Assembly (NCBI RefSeq): GCF_946892675.1 | Contig: NZ_CAMPOV010000002.1 | Coordinates: 806,001 to 870,000, forward strand | Origin: Arthrobacter sp. Marseille-P9274 | GTDB taxonomy: Bacteria > Actinomycetota > Actinomycetes > Actinomycetales > Micrococcaceae | Direction: 5' to 3' | Length of the DNA: 64,000 nt | In this document: one piece after another, positions 5,891 to 26,872 of the stretch | Layout: each line of letters begins with the position of its first letter | Numbering within the stretch: the stretch's first letter is position 1 | Translations under genes and position numbers: made by a program | The notes under the pieces: generated by a model | Told to the model about the DNA's origin: nothing | Database searches by the model: none | What the model saw: only the letters and a program-made list of their open reading frames with translations

Positions 5891-6415
5891 ATGGCATATC
5901 CGGTCCCAAGTGCACCAAAGCGCACTCCGCTAACAGCGGCAGTGGGCAGCACCGCGCCCGGACACCATGCCCTGCCCACGGTGGAGGAGGTTTCCGCCGG
6001 CGGCGTCGTCGTGGATACGGCCACCGATGAGCTGCGCGTGGCCATCATCGCGAGGTTCAACCGCGGCGGACGACTGGAGTGGTGCCTGCCGAAGGGCCAC
6101 CCCGAGAACGCGGAAACCAACGAGGAAGCGGCCGTCCGCGAGATCGAAGAGGAAACCGGAATCCAGGGCAAGGTCCTCGCCACCCTCGGCAGCATCGACT
6201 ACTGGTTCACTGTCAGTGGCCACCGCGTCCACAAGACCGTCCACCACTTCCTGCTCCGCGCCACGGGGGGCGAACTGACCATCGAGAACGACCCGGACCA
6301 CGAGGCAGTCGATGTCGCGTGGATTCCGCTGGCCGAGCTGGGGCGGAAGCTTTCTTTTCCCAATGAGCGCCGCATCGTCGACCTGGCCCGGGAAGTCCTG
6401 CCCGAGTACCTCTGA
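5891..6415 (+). CDS. NUDIX hydrolase (MutT4 position)
   Basis: A nucleoside-diphosphate-linked hydrolase of 174 residues. The NUDIX box is complete at residues 69-91: G69, E75, then REIEEETGI with R83, E84, E87, E88. A poorly conserved, Pro-rich tail of about 30 residues precedes the domain. An in-frame GTG lies 9 nt upstream of the chosen ATG and cannot be excluded. In mycobacteria a NUDIX gene (mutT4) sits in the same place between pcnA and the MurJ region; orthology is inferred from position only. Confidence 0.88.
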   Translation: MAYPVPSAPKRTPLTAAVGSTAPGHHALPTVEEVSAGGVVVDTATDELRVAIIARFNRGGRLEWCLPKGHPENAETNEEAAVREIEEETGIQGKVLATLGSIDYWFTVSGHRVHKTVHHFLLRATGGELTIENDPDHEAVDVAWIPLAELGRKLSFPNERRIVDLAREVLPEYL

Positions 6416-6520
6416 CCAGTGGTCGGAGCAGTCGCCGGCCCGGCCGTCGAGCCGGGAACACGATCAGGCTGGGTGTTGTCTGGACGGCCGCGGCGGCCCT
6501 CAATGAGACGATAGACAACG

Positions 6521-11405: not shown

Positions 11406-12596
11406 ATGATGGAATCTGACGCTGCAGACCGCAGTCTGCGCCGTTCCGACGCTAGCCCGCGCGTAGTAGCCCTCCGCGAGAGGCTGCTGCGCGCGGGTGT
11501 TTCCATGGCCTACCTGGCACCGGATCAGGTCAATGACGCCTCCGTCTTTGACGACCACGTCGACGCAGCCGTCCGGACCTTCCAGCAGGCGCGCGGGCTC
11601 ATGGTGGACGGAGTCGCCGGCCCCGAGACACTGCGGGCTCTCTCGGAGGCACAGTTCAACCTCGGCGACCGCCAGCTCGCTTGGTTCCCGGGAGCCGATC
11701 TGATCCGCGGAGACGACGTCGCCGAACTGCAGCGACAGCTGTCCTACTTGGGCTTCTACTACGGTCATATCGACGGCGAGTTCGGCGAACGCTGCTACTA
11801 CGCCGTGCGCGAGCTTCAAATGAACCTCGGCTTGGAAGTAACCGGAGTTTGCGACGCTCCGCTAATCGGTGCCATGGCCCGCGTCAGCCGGACCATTAGC
11901 CCGAGCCAAGCCTTCTCCCTGCGCGACTACGAACATCTACACCAGTCCTCAGCCGCTTTGAAGGGCCGGGTCGTTTGCTTGGGAGCAGGGCAGGGGTCGG
12001 CGAAGGCCGAACACGCCATCGACAGGGCCAGCGGTCAGGCACTGTCCCAGTGGTCCGTGGCATCCGACATCACGCACCGCATCGAAAGCATTCTTTCTGC
12101 GCTCGGCGCCGACGTCACCGTCATCGGGGACACAGCAGAGATGCCACACGCCGAGCGAATGCAAAGAATCAAGAGCTCAAATGCAAGCCTAAGCGTGACT
12201 ATCAACTGTGACTGGTTGGACCAGCCGGCGGCTAACGGCGTTTCAGCCTTTTACTGGGGAAGACCGGAAACAGGTGAAATCCGATCGCCGATCGGGCACC
12301 GGGCAGCCGAGTTGGTCCTCAAAGAGATCCTCGCCCGTACATCCATGACGGATCTCGGTATCCACGGCAGAAGCTGGGACATTCTGCGGATGACATCGGT
12401 ACCGTCCATCGAACTCGATCTCGGCTACCTCAGCAGCCCGGTCGACAGCGAACGGCTGGCCGATCCCGTCTTCCGTCAGGTCCTGGCGGATGCCGTTGTC
12501 ATTGCCATTCAGCGGCTTTACCTCCTGGAAGAAGAGGACGAGCCAACGGGAACACTAGCTGTCGACGACGTCCTACGCTTCAACCCCGGCCTCTGA
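11406..12596 (+). CDS. cwlM: CwlM-like cytoplasmic peptidoglycan regulator (inactive amidase fold)
   Basis: A 396-residue protein with two peptidoglycan_binding_1-type repeats (about residues 20-80 and 100-155) and a C-terminal Amidase_3-like domain. There is no signal peptide. The usual zinc ligands look replaced: GAGQG where active enzymes have a GHG, INCDW where a second His is expected, and LDLGYL where a Glu is expected. In mycobacteria CwlM is a PknB substrate that activates MurA from the cytoplasm. The tail here (EPTGTLAVDDVL) offers threonines of the same general kind. Codon use is less GC-biased than in trxA. The start may equally be the second of two adjacent ATGs. Confidence 0.85.
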   Translation: MMESDAADRSLRRSDASPRVVALRERLLRAGVSMAYLAPDQVNDASVFDDHVDAAVRTFQQARGLMVDGVAGPETLRALSEAQFNLGDRQLAWFPGADLIRGDDVAELQRQLSYLGFYYGHIDGEFGERCYYAVRELQMNLGLEVTGVCDAPLIGAMARVSRTISPSQAFSLRDYEHLHQSSAALKGRVVCLGAGQGSAKAEHAIDRASGQALSQWSVASDITHRIESILSALGADVTVIGDTAEMPHAERMQRIKSSNASLSVTINCDWLDQPAANGVSAFYWGRPETGEIRSPIGHRAAELVLKEILARTSMTDLGIHGRSWDILRMTSVPSIELDLGYLSSPVDSERLADPVFRQVLADAVVIAIQRLYLLEEEDEPTGTLAVDDVLRFNPGL

Positions 12597-12984
12597 CAAA
12601 GCCCTGCCAGGGGTAGGGGACGCCTACCCACAGTTCGCCGCGCTGCCGCCTTGGAGCCTGGGGCGAAGGACGTCTCGCGGCCTGGGGAGAAGAGCGTGAC
12701 GCAGCTGCCGCCCGAGCGCTGAATCGCTCAATAGAGGACGCCGCTCGGAACTCCGGACGAGAACCCGCCCTCGGCCCGTAGAGGTCCCATTAGCGTTCCA
12801 CGCCAGTTGGATGATCGCGTAGCTGCAGAAATGCCGGAGCAATTTTCACGGCTCCAACGGGATGCTCTTGCCGGCCTGGAAGACGGGCCGCTTCGCCCTG
12901 AGAAGGAGTCCCACCACCCCTCCGCTAAAGAGAATCCGATTGCCTCTGCATGTTGAACGCCACGGATCTCTGTTCGCCCTGACT

Positions 12985-13345
12985 GTTCCACGTGAAACCG
13001 CACCCGTCCCGTCGTAACCGTTCCTCGTGAAACCGCACCCGTCCGGTCGTAACCGTTCCTCGTGAAACCGCGCCCGTCCGGTCGCAACCGTTCCACGTGA
13101 AACCGCACCCGTCCGGTCGTAACCGTTCCACGTGAAACCGCACCCGTCCGGTCGTAACCGTTCCACGTAAACCGCACCCGTCAGGTCGTAACCGTTCCAC
13201 GTAAACCGCACCCGTCAGGTCGCAACCGTTCCACGTGAAACCGCACCCGTCCGGTCGTAACCGTTCCTCGTGAAACCGCGCCCGTCCGGTCGCAACCGTT
13301 CCACGTAAACCGCACCCGTCAGGTCGTAACCGTTCCTCGTGAAAC
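12985..13345 (+). repeat. Tandem array of 11 parS-like units, 34-35 bp period
   Basis: Each unit is a 14-bp parS-type core plus a 20-21 bp GC-rich spacer starting CGCACCCGTC. Cores begin at 12985, 13020, 13055, 13090, 13125, 13160, 13194, 13228, 13263, 13298 and 13332. Four are intact GTTCCACGTGAAAC (12985, 13090, 13125, 13228). Four carry CTCGTG in place of CACGTG (13020, 13055, 13263, 13332). Three have lost one G (GTTCCACGTAAAC: 13160, 13194, 13298). All units face the same way. Spacers vary at only a few positions, so this is not a CRISPR. Binding by the ParB encoded 4 kb away is inferred from the parS consensus. Confidence 0.93.
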
Positions 13346-14120
13346 TGCTGCGGGTGGATTGGCGTGGCTACGAGACGACTCGCGCCCGGCTGTCGCAGAT
13401 GCCGGAGGGGTACGGCGTTCGCCGCACGAGATGCTCGGCAGCGTCGCCTCTGCAAATAAGTTGCTGCCTTCTCGAATTCCGCTGTCGGAACGATGGTTTC
13501 ACAAGGTTGAGAAGGAAAGTGCGAATAGTGCAGGGCCACTTAGGCTCTTACCTACTCACGGCGCAAAATGGAGAATGCGGTTTGACCGCTATCTCCTCGA
13601 GAGTATTGTTTTCGCTTTTCGGGTGGAGATGCGGCCGCGGAGATGCCGTCATGGCCCGATGCGCCGAGGGCCGACAGGCGGCACCCCAACTGTAGCTCGG
13701 CATCCGTTCTTCGCATTCCGTCCGGGAAGGACTAGAGAGAGAACGCGCTACCTGGCTGCCAATCACTCCATAGTCGATCGCCGACCGCCTAACCATCATA
13801 AGGAGGTACCCAAATTGTCGTTCACGCATGTCTTCTTGGGAGCACCCGCTCCTAATGACCACCGGTGTCGATCGTCGCCGCCCTACTCAACCAGGCGCGT
13901 ACTCAACCACGCGTGTCGGCACCAGACGGGCCGAGCAGAGGCTCCCTTCCCGATGCAACGAACGCTCCTTTTCGTCTCCATGCTTCCTGGAGATCAAGGA
14001 CCAACAACCCCCCTCACGCGGGCAAGGTGATGCAATGTACTGGAGATCGTGGGTGGCACGGGAAGCGAGAAGGGCACGCCCAATGAGCACTGACAAACAA
14101 TCAAGCGACGGCCGAGCGGC

Positions 14121-14134
14121 GTTTCACGTGGAAC
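14121..14134 (-). promoter_or_regulatory. parS site
   Basis: GTTTCACGTGGAAC, identical on the opposite strand to the intact core of the array; a match to the general bacterial parS consensus. Confidence 0.88.
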
Positions 14135-14217
14135 GCCGCGCCGGTCCTGAGCGGCGGGGCACCCACCTTCGCCTGCTCGGCGCTTGCGTCAACATGCAAA
14201 GGAGAGGGGCTACGCGA

Positions 14218-14231
14218 GTTCCACGTGAAAC
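14218..14231 (+). promoter_or_regulatory. parS site
   Basis: GTTCCACGTGAAAC flanked by A on both sides, 97 bp from the previous site and in the opposite orientation. Confidence 0.88.
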
Positions 14232-14766
14232 ACATGTAGGGAACTAATCGACTGCTCAAACCCGGCGCGATCCCAAGGGAGCCGCGCGGATCGACCGGGC
14301 TCCGCAGTCCACCGACGGCGACAGGTAACTACACAGAAGCGGACTTCAGTCGGTCGGTCCGATCTCCATTACCTCAAACCAAGGGGGAAGCTAGAAGCGC
14401 GCCAACCTCCTGCAGCAGATGGCCTGAGTGATTCTGCAGCATCCCGAAGAAGCACGGCGGAGCAAAGTCCTCGAAGAACCCTTCTTGAACGAAGCATTTC
14501 TTCCTCGAAAGAGTGCTTCTGAGCACGACGCCTTTACGACGCGCGCAGTGATTTTCTAACGCAGAGGCCGCTCCGCAGGCCTGGCAGGTAGAAGCTAGCA
14601 TTTCCCGGATCCCACCCGTCGTCTACTCACAGCTCGAAAGAGACCATATCCGGGGCGAATCTGGGGAGTGACGCAGAGAGGCTGTCACTGATCCCTCATC
14701 AGAAGGCGATGATCGATCCATATGCTTAGCTGTGCAACGCATCTCTGTGCCCCATATGGTCAGTAC

Positions 14767-14780
14767 GTTCCACGTGAAAC
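14767..14780 (+). promoter_or_regulatory. parS site
   Basis: GTTCCACGTGAAAC in non-coding DNA; intact core. Confidence 0.88.
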
Positions 14781-15055
14781 ACGGAGATTGAACGCAGAAG
14801 TATTAGGCCGTCAGCCTCGCCCCGATTCATTTGGAAACTCAACCCTCCCGGATGGAGCATATCTGTAATGTGGAGGAGAGCAACGCGATAGTCCTCGGCC
14901 CGGGCGAGCACGGGCTACTTCGAGCCCAGGCCGAGTTGGTTCGCGGCCCTTCGGAGTCCTCGGCGTCGATGTGAGCGCCAGGATGTTGTCATGATCCGTG
15001 CGTACAGCCCTAGACGCCTGCCCCATGCGCATTTGGGTGTTGTGCTCGAAGGGGT

Positions 15056-15069
15056 GTTCCACGTGAAAC
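15056..15069 (+). promoter_or_regulatory. parS site
   Basis: GTTCCACGTGAAAC preceded by T, extending the match toward the 16-bp consensus. Confidence 0.88.
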
Positions 15070-15408
15070 GAAGCCCCCTCCGCCCATTTTGCCGGTAGAG
15101 CCATCACAATGCAGCGGCCTCAGGAGCGTATGAGAAGAATGCTGGTGCCCGGCCACGATTCGCAAAGCGGTCGGGCGTTGCAGCATCCAATCGAAATCTT
15201 CCGCGGCCACTGGGGCCGCCGCGGCCCTTGGCGGGGTCTCCACCGCCGAAGGGCAACGATGGTTCGAAGAGCTAAGGAATGTGGGGCGGGCTAAGTGTAT
15301 CCACAGTGGAAATGGCACTCTGCTCAGGGCTTGCTATATGACCACACGCATCTGGCGTACGGAGTTGAACCGTCATTCCCGCACTAGACTGGTGGGCCGG
15401 CGCGTAGG

Positions 15409-15427
15409 CACAGTCCTGAGGACTGTG
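15409..15427. repeat. 19-nt perfect inverted repeat
   Basis: CACAGTCCT and AGGACTGTG separated by one G. It lies in non-coding DNA between two parS sites. No T-run follows, so an operator or a recombination remnant is as likely as a terminator. Confidence 0.45.
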
Positions 15428-15517
15428 TCAGACACGATGCCGACCGACAGAAGGTGATTCACCTACCCCTCTTCGGGACGAACAGAGATCTGGGCAGCGT
15501 CTTCCACCACAAGGTCC

Positions 15518-15531
15518 GTTTCACGTGGAAC
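15518..15531 (-). promoter_or_regulatory. parS site
   Basis: GTTTCACGTGGAAC, intact core, reverse orientation. Confidence 0.88.
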
Positions 15532-16142
15532 AGCGTCTTTCGCAGGGGGCTCCCCATGCGACACGCAGAAATGAGAACGGAGTGTGTAAACCCCTAGCAG
15601 TGGGTTCAAGGTGCTCCTTCGACGCTAACCAATAGCTACTCAGCGGAAGGACAGGATAAAACGAGTGGGCCAACTGTGTTCTCTCGGCAGGCTCAACATC
15701 ATCCCAATCACACCATCCACCTAGTTCGCCTTCCGAAGGGTTCGATCACTGTCAGAAGCGTACTATCCCTATCGACGGTACTCATGTGAAAGACATACAT
15801 TGGGCACGGCCATTGGGCCCGTGGTGGATGCACTCTGCAAGCCTAGCCAGCGATCCAGACGACTGGGCGTACTCTTGAATCCCAGCAGTCAACAGCGCCC
15901 GCGGCTGCTGCTGCCCGGATCAGTAGTTTTAGAAGAGTCCGAAGCGGAGGGCTCCAATTTCGATCCGGATTCCACACAAGGAGTAGCTCTGACGTGGAAG
16001 TAGGAATCGGATGCGCAAGTAGGTCAGGCCGGGGCCACTGGCAATCGCTCGTCTCGGACACAATCGACGCGCCGTTCCTTCTGCGTTCAACCCCTCCATG
16101 CGACGATGCCTCCTTCCCGTGACACGTCTCCTTCGGACGCTG

Positions 16143-16156
16143 GTTTCACGTGGAAC
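16143..16156 (-). promoter_or_regulatory. parS site
   Basis: GTTTCACGTGGAAC, intact core, reverse orientation. Confidence 0.88.
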
Positions 16157-16427
16157 AACATCCCGCGCGCGCGAGGGAGAAGGAGACTGTCCGTTATCGA
16201 TATCCCAACGCACTTGCCCATGGGTGACTGACGCCTACGTATATCGCGGAGGCCTACACGGATGTTGGCTCTGTTTCCCGTAGTAGGGACTGCATTCTAG
16301 CATTGCTCCTCGTTGGGGCAGCACCGACAAATTCGATGCCCCATCCCAGCCGCTGATTGTCCTGTGCTGAAACTACTACTTGGCCGCAACAAATCCGTCA
16401 GTTCAGACCGAGCGCACGGGCAGTCAT

Positions 16428-16441
16428 GTTTCACGTGGAAC
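16428..16441 (-). promoter_or_regulatory. parS site
   Basis: TGTTTCACGTGGAACA including flanks, a full 16-bp-type match. Confidence 0.9.
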
Positions 16442-16833
16442 AGCTACTCCGAGGGCCAAACGCCAGAACCTTCAGGCTGCTGGGCGGGCCCTCGGTCTGA
16501 AACTGCGCCCTCGCCTACCTGGGCGCGGGCCCTCTTCCGGCGGATCCTCCCCCCACTGAACGTGCAGGCGAAATTCAGGGCAGAATCAGAACACTCGTGA
16601 TCTGGAGAGCCGGACTGAGCAACAGCATGCACGATCTCCGTGTCACTCTTGCTAGTAGCGCTACATCCAGCCCAGCGAATTGAGTCTTGAACTGCGCAGC
16701 AGTACCGACGCGGGATGCAAAGAGGATGACGTCACATCTGGTCCCGGTTTGGCCTGCTCCTCCCAAACGCCAACTTGCGTCATCCCCACACGCACGAGCA
16801 ATGCCGGCCTACAGTCTATGGAGGCAGGAGATG

Positions 16834-16847
16834 GTTGCACGTGAAAC
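16834..16847 (+). promoter_or_regulatory. parS-like site with one change
   Basis: GTTGCACGTGAAAC. The CACGTG core is intact and position 4 is G. The general parS consensus tolerates any base there, so it may still bind ParB. Confidence 0.7.
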
Positions 16848-17230
16848 GACCGATTGTTGCACCGAACCAGTGAAAATTTGTACCTGACCGACTCAGCACC
16901 TTATATTCTGCGGAATCTTCCTAGACGCTGACACCCGGCATCTGATGTGACCATCTGAACGCCCAGCGAGGCGAAGTGGCAGTAGAGGCGGAATCAGATT
17001 CTGGTCCTCTAGCTCGCAGGCAGCGCGGTCGCCGGGCGGGGCGGAGCGAGCGAGCAGTCCCTATGCAGCCAGTGCGAGGCCTCGGATGAGGTGCCTGGAC
17101 GAGTCCAGAATCTGAATTGCCCACCCGCCTCGGCTGCGGGAAAGCCAGGCAGGGGCCTCACGGCACCCCTCTAAACCCGTCTTCTACGACCGAAACTACC
17201 CACACTACGGCTGAGTGCTGGTCAAGACCT

Positions 17231-17244
17231 GTTCCACGTGAAAC
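17231..17244 (+). promoter_or_regulatory. parS site nearest the 3' end of parB
   Basis: GTTCCACGTGAAAC preceded by T; 119 bp beyond the parB stop codon. Confidence 0.88.
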
Positions 17245-17310
17245 CGAACTGCTTTATGTTTTGCCCATGTAAACGCCCGCCGTGCCACCGAAAAGGAGAG
17301 GGAATATGCA

Positions 17311-17346
17311 AGAAGGGTGGCGCCGCGTGAGCGGGGCCACCCTTCT
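17311..17346 (-). terminator. Hairpin after parB
   Basis: AGAAGGGTGGC pairs with GCCACCCTTCT (11 bp) around a 14-nt loop, immediately downstream of the parB stop. No clear T-run follows on the minus strand, so termination strength is uncertain. Confidence 0.6.
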
Positions 17347-17362
17347 CGGATGCTGGCGAGGC

Positions 17363-18685
17363 TTAGTTCTCTGACGGACTAAGCACACCCATGATGCGAT
17401 TGAGGTCGTCAACGCTGGCAAACTCAATACTGACGCGCCCCTTTTTCGCCCCCAAGGTGATCTTCACATTCGTATCCAAGCGATCCGACAACGATGTAGC
17501 TAGGAAATCTAGGCGCTCGTGCCGAGCGCCTAAACGAGGCTTGGTCTCCCGCTTCGGCCTGCGGAGACTGTCACTGAGGGCGACAATCTCCTCGGTGGCC
17601 CTTACAGACAAACCCTCGGCAACGATCTTCTGTGCCAGCTTCTCCATCTCCGCGGGATCCGCTAAACCGAGCAGGGCACGCGCGTGCCCTGCCGAGAGCA
17701 CTCCCGCCGCTACGCGACGCTGCACCAATGGCGGAAGCTTCATCAAACGGATCGTATTGGACACCTGCGGGCGTGAACGGCCGATTCTGTCAGCCAACTC
17801 ATCGTGCGTGCAGCCGAAATCCTCAAGCAGTTGTTGGTAGGCCGCTGCTTCCTCGAGTGGATTCAGTTGACTGCGGTGGAGGTTCTCCAAGAGGGCATCA
17901 CGAAGCAGGTCATCATCAGACGTAGAACGAATGATCGCCGGCACGGCTTCGAGTCCTGCCTGCTGGGCCGCGCGCCATCGGCGCTCACCCATGACCAGTT
18001 CGTACTCGTGATCGTTCTGCTCAGAGGAAGGCCGAACGACGATGGGCTGCAAGATGCCGATTTCGCGCACCGAGTGCACAAGTTCGGCCATGTCCTCTTC
18101 ATCGAAGACCGATCTGGGCTGCTTGCGGTTCGGATGAATGGATCCGACAGGGACTTCCGCAAACTTGGCGCCCGGTACCTCCACGAGAGTTTCACGTGAA
18201 ACGTCGTCCGTGGCGGGATCGGACTGTCCACGGGTGTCGTCAGATTCGGACTTCTCAAGGTTTCCACTGGACTCGCGCGGGACAACGGCGTTGGGGGCAT
18301 CGCCCTCTAGGCTCGCCTCTACCTCGAGCGGATCTGCCTTGGAGTCCGCTGTCTCCGTCTCCTGGGCTGTCTCGGGCTTGTTGGTCTTTGCCCCTTTTGC
18401 ACCGCCCGCAGCAGCGCTCTTGCGGCCCCCTGCGGCCGATCGGCGGGGCCCACGCAGCACTTCTGCGACCTGAGCAGCGGACGAAGAGGGACGTCCCGCG
18501 GCACGGTCGGCCTCTCCGGTGCCCTCAAGATAGGGACGGGTACCGGCCGAGGGGAAAAAGACGTCGACAGGCCGCCCCTTCGGTGCGTTCGAACCGCCTT
18601 CCGGCGCTGAGTCTTCAGTGGCCACTGCAGCATTCGGAATCAAAGCGCCTAGGCCCCTGCCCAAACCGCGGCGTTTCTCACTCAT
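17363..18685 (-). CDS. parB: Chromosome-partitioning protein ParB with long N-terminal linker
   Basis: CTP-dependent parS-binding clamp that spreads along DNA near the origin and engages ParA. It has 440 residues, starting [22 protein letters not shown] lies 7 nt before the ATG. The conserved N-terminal motif is followed by about 155 low-complexity residues (Ser/Ala/Glu/Lys) before the ParB core begins at [12 protein letters not shown] (about 175). The CTP-binding GERRWRA is at 233-239. The HTH region ([18 protein letters not shown]) and a C-terminal dimerisation segment follow. The linker makes the protein longer than typical ParB (about 280-350 aa). A symmetric parS lies within the linker codons for VSRET (162-166). 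ParA is encoded just upstream. Confidence 0.97.
18189..18202. promoter_or_regulatory. Symmetric parS inside parB
   Basis: GTTTCACGTGAAAC, a perfect palindrome within the coding sequence. On the parB strand it encodes the peptide VSRET. Confidence 0.92.
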
Positions 18686-18771
18686 CAAGGATCCTTCCTG
18701 AATGCATGCCTACATGCATTGTTGCGATCTAAGCAGTCATTCTACTGGGGGACGTTGCCACCCATACGGAA

Positions 18772-19740
18772 CTAAGCACCGCGTTCTGCTATTTCCGCAG
18801 CCGCTTCCTGATACGAGAGTGCACCACTCGACGATGGGTCATACGTAATCACGGTCTGCTGGTAGCTGGGCGCTTCGGAAATGCGGACCGACCGCGGAAC
18901 GACCGCGCTAAGGACTTGATCCGGGAAGTGCTCACGGACTTCCGCGGCAACCTGGGCAGCCAGATTCGTCCTGCCGTCATACATGGTCAGGAGAATAGTC
19001 GATACAACCAGTTCTGCGTTCAGATGCTTCTGGATCATTTCGATGTTGTTCAGAAGCTGGCTGAGACCTTCCAGTGCGTAGTACTCACACTGGATGGGGA
19101 TAAGCACCTCTTGGGCGGCAACGAAGGCGTTGACCGTAAGCAGTCCGAGGCTGGGAGGACAGTCGATGAAGACATAGTCCAAGCGCTCCAAGCCAGCCTT
19201 TTCGCGCTCACGACCATAGACTTCTATGGCCCGCCGCAGCCGCTGTTCCCTTGCGACGAGAGACACGAGCTCAATTTCAGCTCCGGCCAAATGAATGGTT
19301 GCAGGAGCGACAATCAGATTCCTGATATCCGGGCAGGGCGCAACCACGTCTGCCAGCGGCATGTCATTGATGAGCACATCGTAAATACTGTCGACCTCCG
19401 CATGGTGCTCTACACCCAATGCTGTGGAGGCGTTGCCCTGCGGATCAATATCCACTACGAGGACGTTGAGGCCCGCCATGGCGAGGGCGGCGGCAATATT
19501 CACCGTCGTCGTGGTCTTGCCGACTCCGCCCTTTTGATTGCTGACAGTCAGCAGACGGGTCCTGGTCGGCCTTGGCAGCGGGCGGCCCCGGAGTCGTTCG
19601 CGGCGTCGGTTCTCGTTGGCTAGTTCCCGTGCCAGTGGAGTAGTTTCGTCGATCGTATCCATAACGTTGGGAACCGTAACCTCTGCTGTGTGTATATCGC
19701 CCATGTCTTGTGTTTCACGTGAAACGGCCGATTCATTCAC
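18772..19740 (-). CDS. parA: Chromosome-partitioning ATPase ParA
   Basis: Deviant-Walker ATPase that positions ParB-bound origins. It has 322 residues from a GTG with GAGG 9 nt upstream. The P-loop KGGVGKTT is at 70-77, followed by DIDPQGNAST and DYVFIDCPPSLGLL. A 60-residue N-terminal tail precedes the ATPase. A TTG 15 nt further upstream and an ATG at 19704 are alternative starts. I prefer the GTG because it has a ribosome site and keeps the tail residues MNESAVSRETQDM. The gene is 86 nt upstream of parB and surely cotranscribed. Confidence 0.95.
   Translation of the reverse strand: MNESAVSRETQDMGDIHTAEVTVPNVMDTIDETTPLARELANENRRRERLRGRPLPRPTRTRLLTVSNQKGGVGKTTTTVNIAAALAMAGLNVLVVDIDPQGNASTALGVEHHAEVDSIYDVLINDMPLADVVAPCPDIRNLIVAPATIHLAGAEIELVSLVAREQRLRRAIEVYGREREKAGLERLDYVFIDCPPSLGLLTVNAFVAAQEVLIPIQCEYYALEGLSQLLNNIEMIQKHLNAELVVSTILLTMYDGRTNLAAQVAAEVREHFPDQVLSAVVPRSVRISEAPSYQQTVITYDPSSSGALSYQEAAAEIAERGA
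19712..19725. promoter_or_regulatory. Symmetric parS at the 5' end of parA
   Basis: TGTTTCACGTGAAACG with a perfect 14-bp palindrome. It lies within codons 6-10 if the GTG start is right, again encoding VSRET. If translation starts at the ATG at 19704 it would lie in the leader instead. Confidence 0.92.
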
Positions 19741-19793
19741 CGCGTACAACCTCAATCAGTTGCCTGCGGCCGGGACGTTCGACGGTCTTAGCC

Positions 19794-23138: not shown

Positions 23139-23566
23139 GGTGGTTACTCCAAGACGATCGACAGATTTGCCTGGCCCCGTGTTGCTCCAAAGGTGCAGGA
23201 ACGGGAAGGCGCTCTATTGGGCATCTGATTCGCTGACCCGCAAAAGGCATGCATGAGCGCACGAAACAGACACAAGGACTACATAACGTTAGGGGTTGGG
23301 AGGCCTCCCCGTCAAATGAGGCGTCCACAACACATTATCCACCAGTGGATTAACACCTGTGGACAACTACTGCGGTCCGGGCTCCTCGGGGTGCCGAAGG
23401 CAGGCGTTCCCGCCCCAAACTTCCCGGCTGTCTTATGCCCGATTCATCATCTACCCTTGCAGGAGCACTTTATCCACTGTCTGTGCATAACTCTGTGGAT
23501 GAAGGCCCCGAATCCGGTACAACCGGACGTGGAGGTTTATTGCACGACAGTTATGAGGGGTACTCA
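23139..23566. other. rpmH-dnaA intergenic region with DnaA boxes
   Basis: This 428-bp gap carries TTATCCACC (23335-23343), a perfect TTGTCCACA read as TGTGGACAA (23358-23366), TTATCCACT (23470-23478), and near-matches TGTGCATAA (23482-23490) and TGTGGATGA (23494-23502). It should also hold the divergent rpmH and dnaA promoters, which I cannot place with confidence. Boxes close to dnaA suggest autoregulation and a bipartite origin. Confidence 0.75.
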
Positions 23567-24985
23567 GTGGACGCGGACCAGATCAACGACGTCGGAAGCT
23601 CCTGGCGCAAAGTGGTTCGGACGCTGGAGCGTGACGACAGGATCAGCCCCAGAAACCGCGGTTTCGTGGGGCTTGCGCAGGCAAAGGGCCTGATCGGCAC
23701 GACGCTGCTGGTGGCGGTTCCCAATGAGTTGACCCGAGAGGTCTACCAGTCGCAGCAGCTCAAGAGCCCTCTGCAGGAAGCCCTTCGGGAAGTTTTCCAG
23801 GACGACATCCTCTGCGCTTTTTCCGTCGACACCGACATGATGGCTGTGGAGCCGGAACCCGAACCCGAGCCGGCTCCCGTCCCGAATCGTGCCTCGGCGG
23901 CTGCCGAGAACCGCGCCCAGCCTTCACCCCCCAGCACCTCGCAGGAGTTCGGCCGGCTCAATCCGAAGTACATTTTCGACACGTTCGTTATTGGTTCTTC
24001 CAACCGGTTCGCCCACGCAGCCGCCGTCGCGGTGGCCGAAGCGCCTGCGAAGGCCTACAACCCGCTGTTTATTTACGGGGATTCCGGGCTGGGGAAGACC
24101 CACCTGCTGCACGCCATCGGACATTACGCCAGGCATCTCTACAACGGCATCCGTGTCCGCTACGTCAATTCGGAAGAATTCACGAACGACTTCATCAACT
24201 CGATCCGCGACGACGAGGGCGCCAGCTTCAAGCATCTGTACCGCAACGTGGACATCCTCCTCATCGACGACATCCAGTTCCTTGCCAATAAGGACGCGAC
24301 GCAGGAAGAGTTTTTCCACACCTTCAACGCGCTGCACAACCACAACAAGCAGGTGGTCATCACCTCCGACCTTCCGCCGAAGCAGCTGTCAGGCTTCGAA
24401 GAGCGGATGCGTTCCCGCTTCGAATGGGGACTCCTGACCGACATCCAGCCGCCCGAGCTGGAAACCCGCATCGCGATCCTCCGCAAGAAGGCAATCAGCG
24501 AAGGCCTGTCCGTACCTGACGAAGTCCTGGAATACATCGGCACCAAGATCTCCACGAATATCCGCGAACTCGAAGGCGCCCTGATCCGCGTCACAGCTTT
24601 CGCCAGCCTCAACCGCCAGGCTGTGGACATGGGCCTGGCCGAGATTGTCCTCAAGGACTTGATCACCGACGACGGCGCCCAGGAGATCACGTCGGCCACG
24701 ATCCTGGGGCAGACAGCTGCCTACTTCAAGCTGAGCCTTGATGAGTTGAAGAGCAAGTCCCGGACGCGCACGCTGGTCACTGCACGCCAGATCGCGATGT
24801 ACCTGTGCCGCGAGCTGACCGACATGTCCCTGCCCAAGATCGGGCAGGAACTTGGAGGACGCGACCACACCACCGTGATCCACGCGGACAGGAAAATCCG
24901 GGAACTGATGGCAGAGCGGCGCGCCATCTACAACCAGGTGACGGAACTGACCAACCTGATCAAGCAACAGCAGCGCGACAACTGA
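23567..24985 (+). CDS. dnaA: Chromosomal replication initiator DnaA
   Basis: Binds DnaA boxes and opens oriC. It has 472 residues from a GTG with GAGGGG 6 nt upstream; the frame is open for 44 more codons but without a ribosome site. Domain I is about 1-90. A Pro/Glu-rich domain II follows (90-130). The AAA+ domain has Walker [12 protein letters not shown] at about 171-181 and Walker [10 protein letters not shown]. The C-terminal DNA-binding signature is [15 protein letters not shown]. Confidence 0.98.
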
Positions 24986-25747
24986 AACCCGGGCCAGTCG
25001 GCAAGGGCGGTACCTCACGACTCCCGGTTCCTGAACTACGCGGGCCGGCCGGAGGGCAAGCTTTTGCTTGCCGTCCACAGATAGATCCCTCCAGCGCCCG
25101 ACTCAGCCCCCTGCACTCCAGCGCACCATGGCATTCCTGGCCGTTGGAGGGAAAGCCACTAAACAAGCACCCTGCCTTGAGCCATCCAGGCGGACGGGGC
25201 GCCGCGTCCCGGAGATCGCCTTAGGCAGTCAGCCCCTTGGGCAGCGCTCCGAATGCCCGATTTCGTGCCGTTTCTGTTCAACACCCCGAAATTAACAGGT
25301 GTGGACAAACCTGTGGATTCTTAAGTGGAGAACCACCACCCATCGAGGGAAAACTGAGGGGGTTGCTGTGGATCTGCGGAACACCGGGATTTTTCATCCA
25401 CAAGATGTGCCTCCTGAACCCCTCTATGGATGCACATCTTGTGAACAGCCGAATTTCGCGTGCTGACGGGGCCAAGTGGAGTTATCCACAGTTTCCACAG
25501 TAGTTATTAACACTACGAATCCCATTTTTTGGGCTTTGCCAAATAACATCTGCTTTCCCACCAGCCTCGAACCTTCGCAAACCCACAGACCGCTACCGCT
25601 CGATGCGTGAACCGCCGCGCGGCGGCTAAGCTTGCACAGAGAATTGTTGTCATTGGCCTTCCGCTGCCGAACCGCCCCGACTGGAGCCGGCCGGAGAACG
25701 CCAATGACCTTCCCCGGCATGTTCGTTGCGAAAGGCGGCACACTTCA
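24986..25747. other. oriC: Origin of replication oriC (dnaA-dnaN intergenic)
   Basis: A 762-bp gap containing perfect DnaA boxes TGTGGACAA (25300-25308) and TTATCCACA (25482-25490). Near-matches lie at 25312-25320, 25367-25375, 25394-25402 (TCATCCACA) and 25439-25447. The AT-rich stretch at about 25500-25552 (TAGTTATTAACACTACG and following) is the best candidate for the unwinding element. A hairpin GGCAAGC/GCTTGCC at 25055-25072 may end the dnaA transcript. Assignment as oriC follows from position and boxes. Confidence 0.88.
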
Positions 25748-26872
25748 GTGAAGTTCAGAGTTGATCGGGATGTCCTGGCTGAGGCCGTTACGTGGACAGC
25801 CCGCTCGCTGTCTCCTCGCCCACCCGTACCCGTGCTTTCGGGCCTGCTCATCAACGCCGAAAACGGCACGGTCAGCCTGGCCAGCTTCGACTACGAAATC
25901 TCGGCACGCCTACAGATTCCAGCCGACGTCAGCGAAGAAGGAACGATCCTCGTCTCCGGCCGGCTGCTGGCCGACATCTCACGCAGCTTGCCGTCGGCAC
26001 CGGTCGATATCGAAACGGACGGCTCCAAGGTCACGCTGACCTGCCGCAGCAGCCGGTTCAACCTGGCCACCATGCCGGTTGCGGACTACCCCGAGCTGCC
26101 CGCGTTGCCGGAAACCAGCGGAATTGTCGACGGAGACGCCTTCGCCGAAGCCGTCAGCCAGGTCATCATTGCTGCCAGCCGTGATGACACCTTGCCGATC
26201 CTCACCGGCGTGCGCATGGAGATCGAGGACGACCAAATCACGCTGCTCTCGACGGACCGCTACCGGCTTGCCCTTCGGGAACTGAAGTGGCGGCCCGCCA
26301 CACCGGGCATTTCCACCAGTGCCCTGGTCAAGGCCAAGACCCTCAGCGAAGTCGCGAAGACTCTTGGCGGAGCGGGCGATCTCAGCATCGCGCTGTCCGA
26401 CAACAGCGAACTCATCGGCTTTGAAAGCGGCGGCCGGCGGACAACGTCGCTGCTCGTGGACGGCGACTACCCCAAGATCCGTTCGCTGTTCCCGGAGAAC
26501 ACCCCGATCCATGCCACCGTGGAAACGTCAGTCCTGGTTGAGGCAGTCCGGCGCGTCTCGCTGGTGGCCGAGCGGAACACCCCGGTGCGGCTTGCCTTCA
26601 CCCAGGGCCAGCTGGCCCTCGACGCCGGCACCGGCGAAGATGCGCAGGCCTCCGAGGTGCTTGAAGCCGCGCTGATCGGCGACGACATCACGGTCGCCTT
26701 CAACCCGCATTACCTGTCCGAAGGCCTGAACGCGTTCAGCAGCAAGTACGTCCGGTTCTCTTTCACGACGCCGCCAAAGCCTGCCGTCCTGTCGGCCCAG
26801 GATGACCTCGAGGGCCAGGACCGGGAAGACTATCGCTACCTGCTCATGCCGGTTCGCCTGCCCAACCAGTAG
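25748..26872 (+). CDS. dnaN: DNA polymerase III sliding clamp (beta subunit)
   Basis: Forms the ring that tethers the replicative polymerase. It has 374 residues from a GTG (MKFRVDRDVLAEAVTWTARS), the normal family length. The three clamp domains are recognisable, with RPPVPVLSGLLINAE in domain I and DTLPILTGVRMEIEDDQITLLSTDRYRL in domain II. The terminal YRYLLMPVRLPNQ is typical. A longer frame upstream overlaps oriC and is not used. Confidence 0.97.
   Translation: MKFRVDRDVLAEAVTWTARSLSPRPPVPVLSGLLINAENGTVSLASFDYEISARLQIPADVSEEGTILVSGRLLADISRSLPSAPVDIETDGSKVTLTCRSSRFNLATMPVADYPELPALPETSGIVDGDAFAEAVSQVIIAASRDDTLPILTGVRMEIEDDQITLLSTDRYRLALRELKWRPATPGISTSALVKAKTLSEVAKTLGGAGDLSIALSDNSELIGFESGGRRTTSLLVDGDYPKIRSLFPENTPIHATVETSVLVEAVRRVSLVAERNTPVRLAFTQGQLALDAGTGEDAQASEVLEAALIGDDITVAFNPHYLSEGLNAFSSKYVRFSFTTPPKPAVLSAQDDLEGQDREDYRYLLMPVRLPNQ

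Follow-up and report, generated by a model that had tools for sequence, protein, structure and literature searches.

ParB-CTP clamps load at parS, a palindrome with the consensus TGTTTCACGTGAAACA, and slide from there; this is well established, and intact parS sites are expected to load ParB. On its plasmid, sopC is the main centromere. Most bacteria cluster their parS sites within 5-40 kb (PMC8357415). In Myxococcus xanthus, a 3-kb stretch some 4 kb upstream of parA holds 22 sites (PMC3899335), and in Caulobacter crescentus the five strongest sites fall within 5 kb (PMC5815017) and "tandem parS sequences" are mentioned (PMC4368675). Corynebacterium glutamicum carries ten parS sites in 35 kb; ParB loading is seen by ChIP-seq, one parS suffices, and degenerate sites with three or more mismatches do not recruit ParB (PMC7083940). 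The sopC locus of the F plasmid consists of ten functional 43-bp repeats (PMC7205306). Tandem parS1/parS arrays have been inserted experimentally in V. cholerae (PMC4091711) and B. subtilis (PMC5098823, PMC7614844), and our search of the open-licence literature, including the portions consulted of PMC3778016 and PMC12260392, turned up no naturally occurring chromosome with parS repeated many times in tandem.

We analysed a 64,000-nucleotide stretch of the genome of Arthrobacter sp. Marseille-P9274 (the window), in which a tandem array of parS-like repeats lies close to parB. The gene order runs from an amidase gene on the plus strand across a gene-free interval to parB and parA on the minus strand, then through ORFs that we take, from their sequence, to be rsmG, jag, yidC, yidD and rnpA, and on to dnaA and dnaN (Table 1). 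The encoded ParB has N-terminal, HTH and C-terminal dimer domains and is accompanied by a ParA-type ATPase, and the parS cluster is origin-proximal, as judged by the nearby ORFs with DnaA and DnaN domains. The intact sequence GTTYCACGTGRAAC occurs 14 times in the 4.78-Mb genome, and all 14 copies fall within 6.7 kb (12985-19725): four belong to the array, eight are scattered over the rest of the interval, and parB and parA contain one each. The reversed control pattern had no matches. Allowing one mismatch adds seven sites in the genome (the four CTCGTG cores of the array, the site at 16834 and two distant ones; one match for the control), and at up to three mismatches the window holds 15 matches (four of them in the array), compared with 0.05 in shuffled sequence.

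Table 1. Coordinates of the array, the interval and neighbouring genes (positions in the window).
Feature	Position	Strand	Remarks
N-acetylmuramoyl-L-alanine amidase	11406..12596	+	PG_binding_1, Amidase_3; convergent to parB
Putative parS platform	12597..17362		4,766-bp non-coding interval, 12 intact parS, GC 0.597, without 3-base periodicity
Array core starts (unit table)	12985, 13020, 13055, 13090, 13125, 13160, 13194, 13228, 13263, 13298, 13332		
Intact parS core GTTCCACGTGAAAC (4/11)	12985..12998, 13090..13103, 13125..13138, 13228..13241		Units 1, 4, 5, 8
Variant core GTTCCTCGTGAAAC (4/11)	13020..13033 (unit 2); also 13055, 13263, 13332	+	Half-site GTGAAAC intact
Variant core GTTCCACGTAAAC (3/11), one base fewer	13160..13172 (unit 6); also 13194, 13298	+	Half-site GTTCCAC intact
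Dispersed intact parS	14121..14134; also 14218, 14767, 15056, 15518, 16143, 16428, 17231		
One-mismatch parS in interval	16834		
parB	17363..18688	-	441 aa; ParB_N, HTH_ParB, ParB_C
Intact parS inside parB	18189..18202		
parA ORF	18772..19755	-	AAA_31, CbiA domains; predicted start codon
Intact parS inside 5' end of parA ORF	19712..19725		
dnaA ORF	23435-24985		DnaA domain
dnaN ORF	25607-26872		DNA polymerase III beta domains

The interval between the amidase gene and parB has no coding signature. Its GC content is flat across the three phases (0.591/0.596/0.597, against 0.661/0.489/0.688 in parB), and once the array is taken out, 8% of 300 simulated sequences have a stop-free frame at least as long as its longest one. 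None of its eight ORFs of at least 100 aa has a Pfam match, an Rfam search of the interval returned no family match, and promoter and terminator motifs showed no excess over shuffles. With its convergent flanks and gene-free middle, the interval would make a suitable platform for ParB loading.

The locus resembles that of M. xanthus in that a chromosomal ParABS system has a dense cluster of canonical sites within a few kb beside parAB. It belongs to another phylum, however, and its cluster lies downstream of parB rather than upstream of parA; the source describes the M. xanthus cluster as one of site repeats. A tight chromosomal cluster near parAB is shared with C. crescentus, where the sites are tandem by mention and graded in affinity, but those sites lie in essential or fitness-cost genes (PMC5815017) whereas the ones in the window lie in a gene-free interval, and the portions consulted of PMC5815017 and PMC4368675 describe no many-copy array. 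As in C. glutamicum, the sites are actinobacterial, canonical and mostly intergenic; unlike here, the C. glutamicum sites are spread over 35 kb, with no tandem array described in the portions consulted of PMC7083940. The array shares with sopC its head-to-tail direct repeats, each with a ParB-family binding site (predicted for the array), but the repeat length differs, and the array forms one edge of a larger dispersed cluster, with seven of its 11 cores broken. Nor can it be called a sole or main centromere, because ten other intact parS sites share the same 6.7 kb. The likeness to plasmid centromeres drawn in an earlier sequence-only reading therefore stands for the architecture but does not extend to matching sequence: blastn with positions 12800-13500 found nothing among 72,556 plasmid and 50,697 phage records, and we rejected a plasmid or phage origin.

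The array itself (12985-13345, plus strand) comprises ten units of 35 or 34 bp and a terminal 14-bp core, all in one orientation, and occupies the amidase-proximal outer edge of the interval, its end at 13345 lying 4.0 kb from the parB stop at 17363. TRF reports exactly this range with a period of 35, 10.4 copies, 92% matches and a score of 610. A unit consists of a parS core and, after it, a 21-bp spacer, most commonly CGCACCCGTCCGGTCGTAACC, and the array is bounded by cores at both ends, with successive core spacings of 35, 35, 35, 35, 35, 34, 34, 35, 35 and 34 bp. The sequence-only reading had described eleven parS-type repeats of this period about 4 kb from parB, four of them intact, with intact first and fourth cores 105 bp apart; sequence, TRF and the unit table bear out each point, although strictly there are ten units and a terminal core. 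The array thus holds four canonical sites within 257 bp. Four further cores (GTTCCTCGTGAAAC) carry one central A-to-T change that turns CACGTG into CTCGTG, and the remaining three (GTTCCACGTAAAC) are short of one base, which accounts for the 34-bp units. At least one perfect half-site is kept in all 11 cores, and the palindrome is imperfect in seven.

Both broken core types have multiplied, one to three units and the other to four, and the same unit sequence recurs with other units in between (3=9, 4=5=8, 6=10), a pattern in the unit sequences that points to block exchange rather than single-step slippage. Two of 14 core columns and four of 21 spacer columns vary, a comparison of low power with so few variable columns; the cores thus vary about as freely as the spacers and give no sign of strong per-copy selection. 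Head-to-tail units more than about 90% alike, with variant units among them, give the array the form of a minisatellite or VNTR. We rejected a CRISPR array, since the spacers are near identical and not unique, and a coding repeat, since periods of 35 and 34 are not multiples of three and the three ORFs of at least 100 aa over the array have no Pfam match.

The sequence-only reading had also set the array against parS sites that are normally isolated and scattered. That contrast falls away, given the 14 intact sites within 6.7 kb, the similar state of most congeners and the clusters described in PMC8357415 and PMC3899335. The nine congeners carry 8-13 intact parS per genome, mostly clustered at parB: in G008 all 13 and in G009 ten of 11 lie inside the 21-kb locus, and in G005 and G007 some lie at distances of up to about 20 kb. 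It is common for parS to cluster near parB across the loci of 80 named relatives, a few of which have no or few parS and some of which are ended by contig ends, so that a dense cluster is the rule here. The sites lie mostly downstream of parB in Arthrobacter and mostly upstream of or within parB in Kocuria, Micrococcus and Nesterenkonia. A count over the zone around parB in 83 loci, with the window array left out, gave 567 intact and 80 one-mismatch sites, two of the latter with the A-to-T change seen in the array. The commonest one-mismatch variant in that zone is A-to-C at position 6 (27 of 80). Within the amidase-parB intervals of 19 Arthrobacter-group loci, the window included with its first array core alone, dispersed parS had a mean CV of 0.67 against 0.89 for random placement, across related and hence non-independent species; spacing was regular at P <=0.05 in eight of the 19 regions and less regular than random in L011, L012, L017 and L018.

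The long tandem form, unlike clustering as such, is rare. None of 295 family genomes has three intact parS with gaps of 8-38 bp, a pattern that counts runs of intact sites and not broken arrays; this genome also fails it, because its intact cores are not three consecutive ones. TRF placed parS in a tandem repeat at two of 82 relative loci (nine congeners included, some loci ended by contig ends), each with about two units (A. horti L041, 42 bp x 2.1; Arthrobacter sp. 260 L024, 26 bp x 2.2). The claim that the array is unusual therefore holds for its long tandem form and not for the clustering. The comparison with related Micrococcaceae that had been proposed as a check divides in the same way: tandem parS is absent from the nine congeners by TRF and site positions, but parS clustering is common there.

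Close pairs matching a 14-44 bp pattern occur in 25 of 197 family genomes, this one included, with actual spacings of 24-43 bp and no pair at 14-23 bp; pairs at 45-75 bp occur in 34 of the 197. A pair alone does not reveal whether duplication made it, and the search pattern bounds the set at 14-44 bp, so its mean spacing is no evidence for a preferred distance. Helical phasing, suggested in the sequence-only reading by three units equalling about ten turns, finds no counterpart in the 25 pairs, which lack a 10.5-bp periodicity (Rayleigh R=0.14, p ~0.6; the set includes the own pair and at least two that nearly duplicate other pairs).

When the variant position is left free to be any base, three close cores occur in 17 of 396 genomes of the phylum, this one included. 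Among the other 16, with one place each, consecutive spacers are identical in two. One, L098 (G624, 1501-1584), has three tandem units of 35-bp period with all three cores intact and a spacer unrelated to that of the window; the other, L106 (G439, 1501-1576), has three units of 31-bp period with a uniform one-mismatch core. By eye, both arrays lie between jag-like and rsmG-like genes, beside parA. In L101 consecutive spacers are 77% alike. Tandem parS repeats thus arise repeatedly, and the window array has the most cores among those that we found in bacterial genomes.

Three close parS cores also occur in 25 IMG/VR contigs, and in six of these (L115, L120, L122, L128, L138 and L139) at least one pair of consecutive spacers is 0.9 identical or more. 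L139 carries seven consecutive intact host-type parS at 6201-6459, mostly with a 38-bp period, and an eighth at 6138; L122 carries about six copies of a 35-38-bp repeat at 14061-14280, adjoining head genes, three with intact parS and the rest truncated. Both encode portal and terminase proteins, which makes them at least two cases of a tandem parS array in a phage contig, and the L139 array could represent use or decoy of host ParB. L098, L106, L139 and L122 share with the window tandem parS-type repeats of 31-38 bp period but differ in position and in spacers that are, by eye, unrelated. Core state ranges from all intact (L098, three of three; the L139 run, seven of seven) to a uniform mismatch in L106 and partial truncation in L122.

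The interval around the array has changed rapidly. Over 21.5 kb the window aligns with A. mangrovi at about 90% identity, and the sole gap of at least 60 bp is 12597-17309. ParB is 89% and the amidase 96% identical between the two, and the counterpart interval in A. mangrovi is 4,558 bp long with seven intact parS. An attempt to trace the array to one ancestral A. mangrovi site was unsuccessful, the interval not being alignable. In three of seven pairs of relatives, of which two belong to the genus and one does not, cores are much better preserved than the sequence that separates them (0.978 vs 0.689, 0.960 vs 0.549 and 1.000 vs 0.721). The contrast is weaker in the other four (0.744/0.499, 0.689/0.494, 0.581/0.474 and, for the window vs A. 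mangrovi, 0.557/0.439), because their intervals hardly align and sites have been gained and lost. G008 (12 sites) and G004 (11 sites) have ten parS in common in intervals that align over 4,702/5,481 bases. The excess conservation of cores indicates that parS is the part that is kept and that the rest of the interval is nearly free to change. Within the array, where few columns vary, this difference between cores and intervening DNA has vanished. In seven genomes of the genus the gene-free parS platform measures 4.6-5.8 kb.

Synonymous sites in the flanking genes suggest a gradient. Four-fold identity between the window and A. mangrovi falls on the amidase side from 0.84 in trxB to 0.72 in the N-terminal and 0.53 in the C-terminal half of the amidase gene, and rises on the other side from 0.43 in the C-terminal half of parB, where amino acid identity is 99%, to 0.59 in its N-terminal half, 0.73 in parA and 0.78 in dnaA. 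The interval-near half is lower than the far half in seven of seven pairs for parB and six of seven for the amidase. The parB C-terminal half is also below parA in 16 of 16 greedy pairs, a count biased by the selection of pairs on parA identity, below dnaA in 12 of 13 pairs with data, and below parB residues 150-229 in nine of the 13 pairs with most parS downstream. In a flip test with the three pairs that have most parS upstream, it was still low, giving no link to the side on which parS lies. Low GC3 in parB (0.66), and with it low codon bias, could be an alternative cause. Taken together, these comparisons are suggestive of synonymous divergence that rises toward the platform on both sides, and a ParB-centred mutation or recombination hotspot could lie behind it; the best eight of 732 literature matches held nothing on a parS mutation hotspot.

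The reading we favour, at a probability of roughly 60%, is that the interval is a ParB-loading centromere platform and that the array is a minisatellite expansion within it, active but redundant, and drifting. The interval would act as the chromosome centromere, with dispersed parS between convergent genes at which ParB clamps would load and slide out, as clamps do elsewhere (PMC10387095). The array would be a local, lineage-specific expansion at the amidase-proximal edge, which most likely started from a pair of parS cores at a distance of 35 bp, well known from the range that close pairs cover in the family. It could have grown by unequal exchange or slippage between cores, and the core at either end would then be accounted for. 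New parS sites are best tolerated near the native cluster (PMC5815017). The four canonical loading sites and the seven cores with one half-site should add to ParB loading, and the function of the array would be redundant because ten other intact parS exist. By analogy with C. glutamicum, in which one parS is enough and sites with three or more mismatches recruit no ParB, the array is most likely active but redundant. The A-to-T change falls on core position 6, which, if the numbering of the two sites corresponds, is one of the two that separate parS from the Noc site (PMC7383237), so the GTTCCTCGTGAAAC cores are probably weaker ParB sites. As the change is rare among natural sites, those copies may even be inert and the contribution of the array smaller than stated above.

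The tandem form might instead have been selected, as in an iterated, sopC-like centromere whose close cores and half-sites raise ParB density or nucleate bridging, with the variants as tuned weak sites. Independent tandem parS in L098 (35 bp, three intact), L106 (31 bp) and the phage contig L139 (seven intact, mostly 38 bp) speak for this, the intact arrays in L098 and L139 suggesting that tandem repetition can be favoured; the perfect half-site in all 11 cores speaks for it too, given that half-parS binding is reported for some ParBs (PMC10419367, PMC7022226). In the re-analysis of PMC7022226, however, ParB of C. glutamicum and S. coelicolor showed no half-site binding, and core columns are about as variable as spacer columns, no array was found in nine congeners, close pairs lack helical phasing and ten other intact sites are at hand. 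We regard this alternative as rather unlikely, although four intact cores remain and selection for some of the sites could still act. At the other extreme, replication slippage would have amplified a parS-bearing segment as a neutral satellite with ParB loading unaffected. Seven broken cores, the multiplication of the broken types and an interval that tolerates complete sequence turnover would fit such a satellite, but four cores are identical to the type of site that relatives conserve, and we consider it improbable.

Two further explanations seem very improbable to us. The spacer is as regular as the core, as it would be if some other protein bound to the array or were halted there and parS were a mere passenger. 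Yet a search with the spacer and the last core base at up to two mismatches gave ten matches in this genome, all inside the array, the spacer and core-start pattern has no exact match in viral contigs, and in the other tandem arrays, compared by eye, parS recurs without this spacer. The assembly has 16 contigs, and a collapsed, expanded or chimeric repeat could in principle have produced the array; against such an artefact stand the three intermixed unit types in a total of 361 bp and a location on a 904-kb contig with about 85 kb to its nearer end. More tentatively, and well short of an even chance, the favoured reading could be widened to an Arthrobacter-type regional centromere: a gene-free platform with complete turnover, parS sites that are kept, gained and lost, divergent flanks and, in this genome, a satellite made of its own site.

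In summary, the locus is a chromosomal parS cluster that includes a local array resembling a satellite; the kind of cluster is known, and the tandem form is unusual. The array looks like an expansion caught in the act, and its intact and broken cores, side by side, offer a natural test of the influence that half-sites and the density of sites have on the loading of ParB clamps. Of greater interest is how fast the platform turns over. This allows the evolution of a bacterial centromere to be studied within one genus, in which the sites stay and the intervening DNA is replaced. Should the synonymous gradient prove real, DNA coated with ParB may be evolving faster than the sequence around it, and if the reading as a regional centromere is true, the locus would be a bacterial parallel of the fast-evolving eukaryotic centromeres, perhaps by way of a ParB-centred mutation or recombination hotspot.
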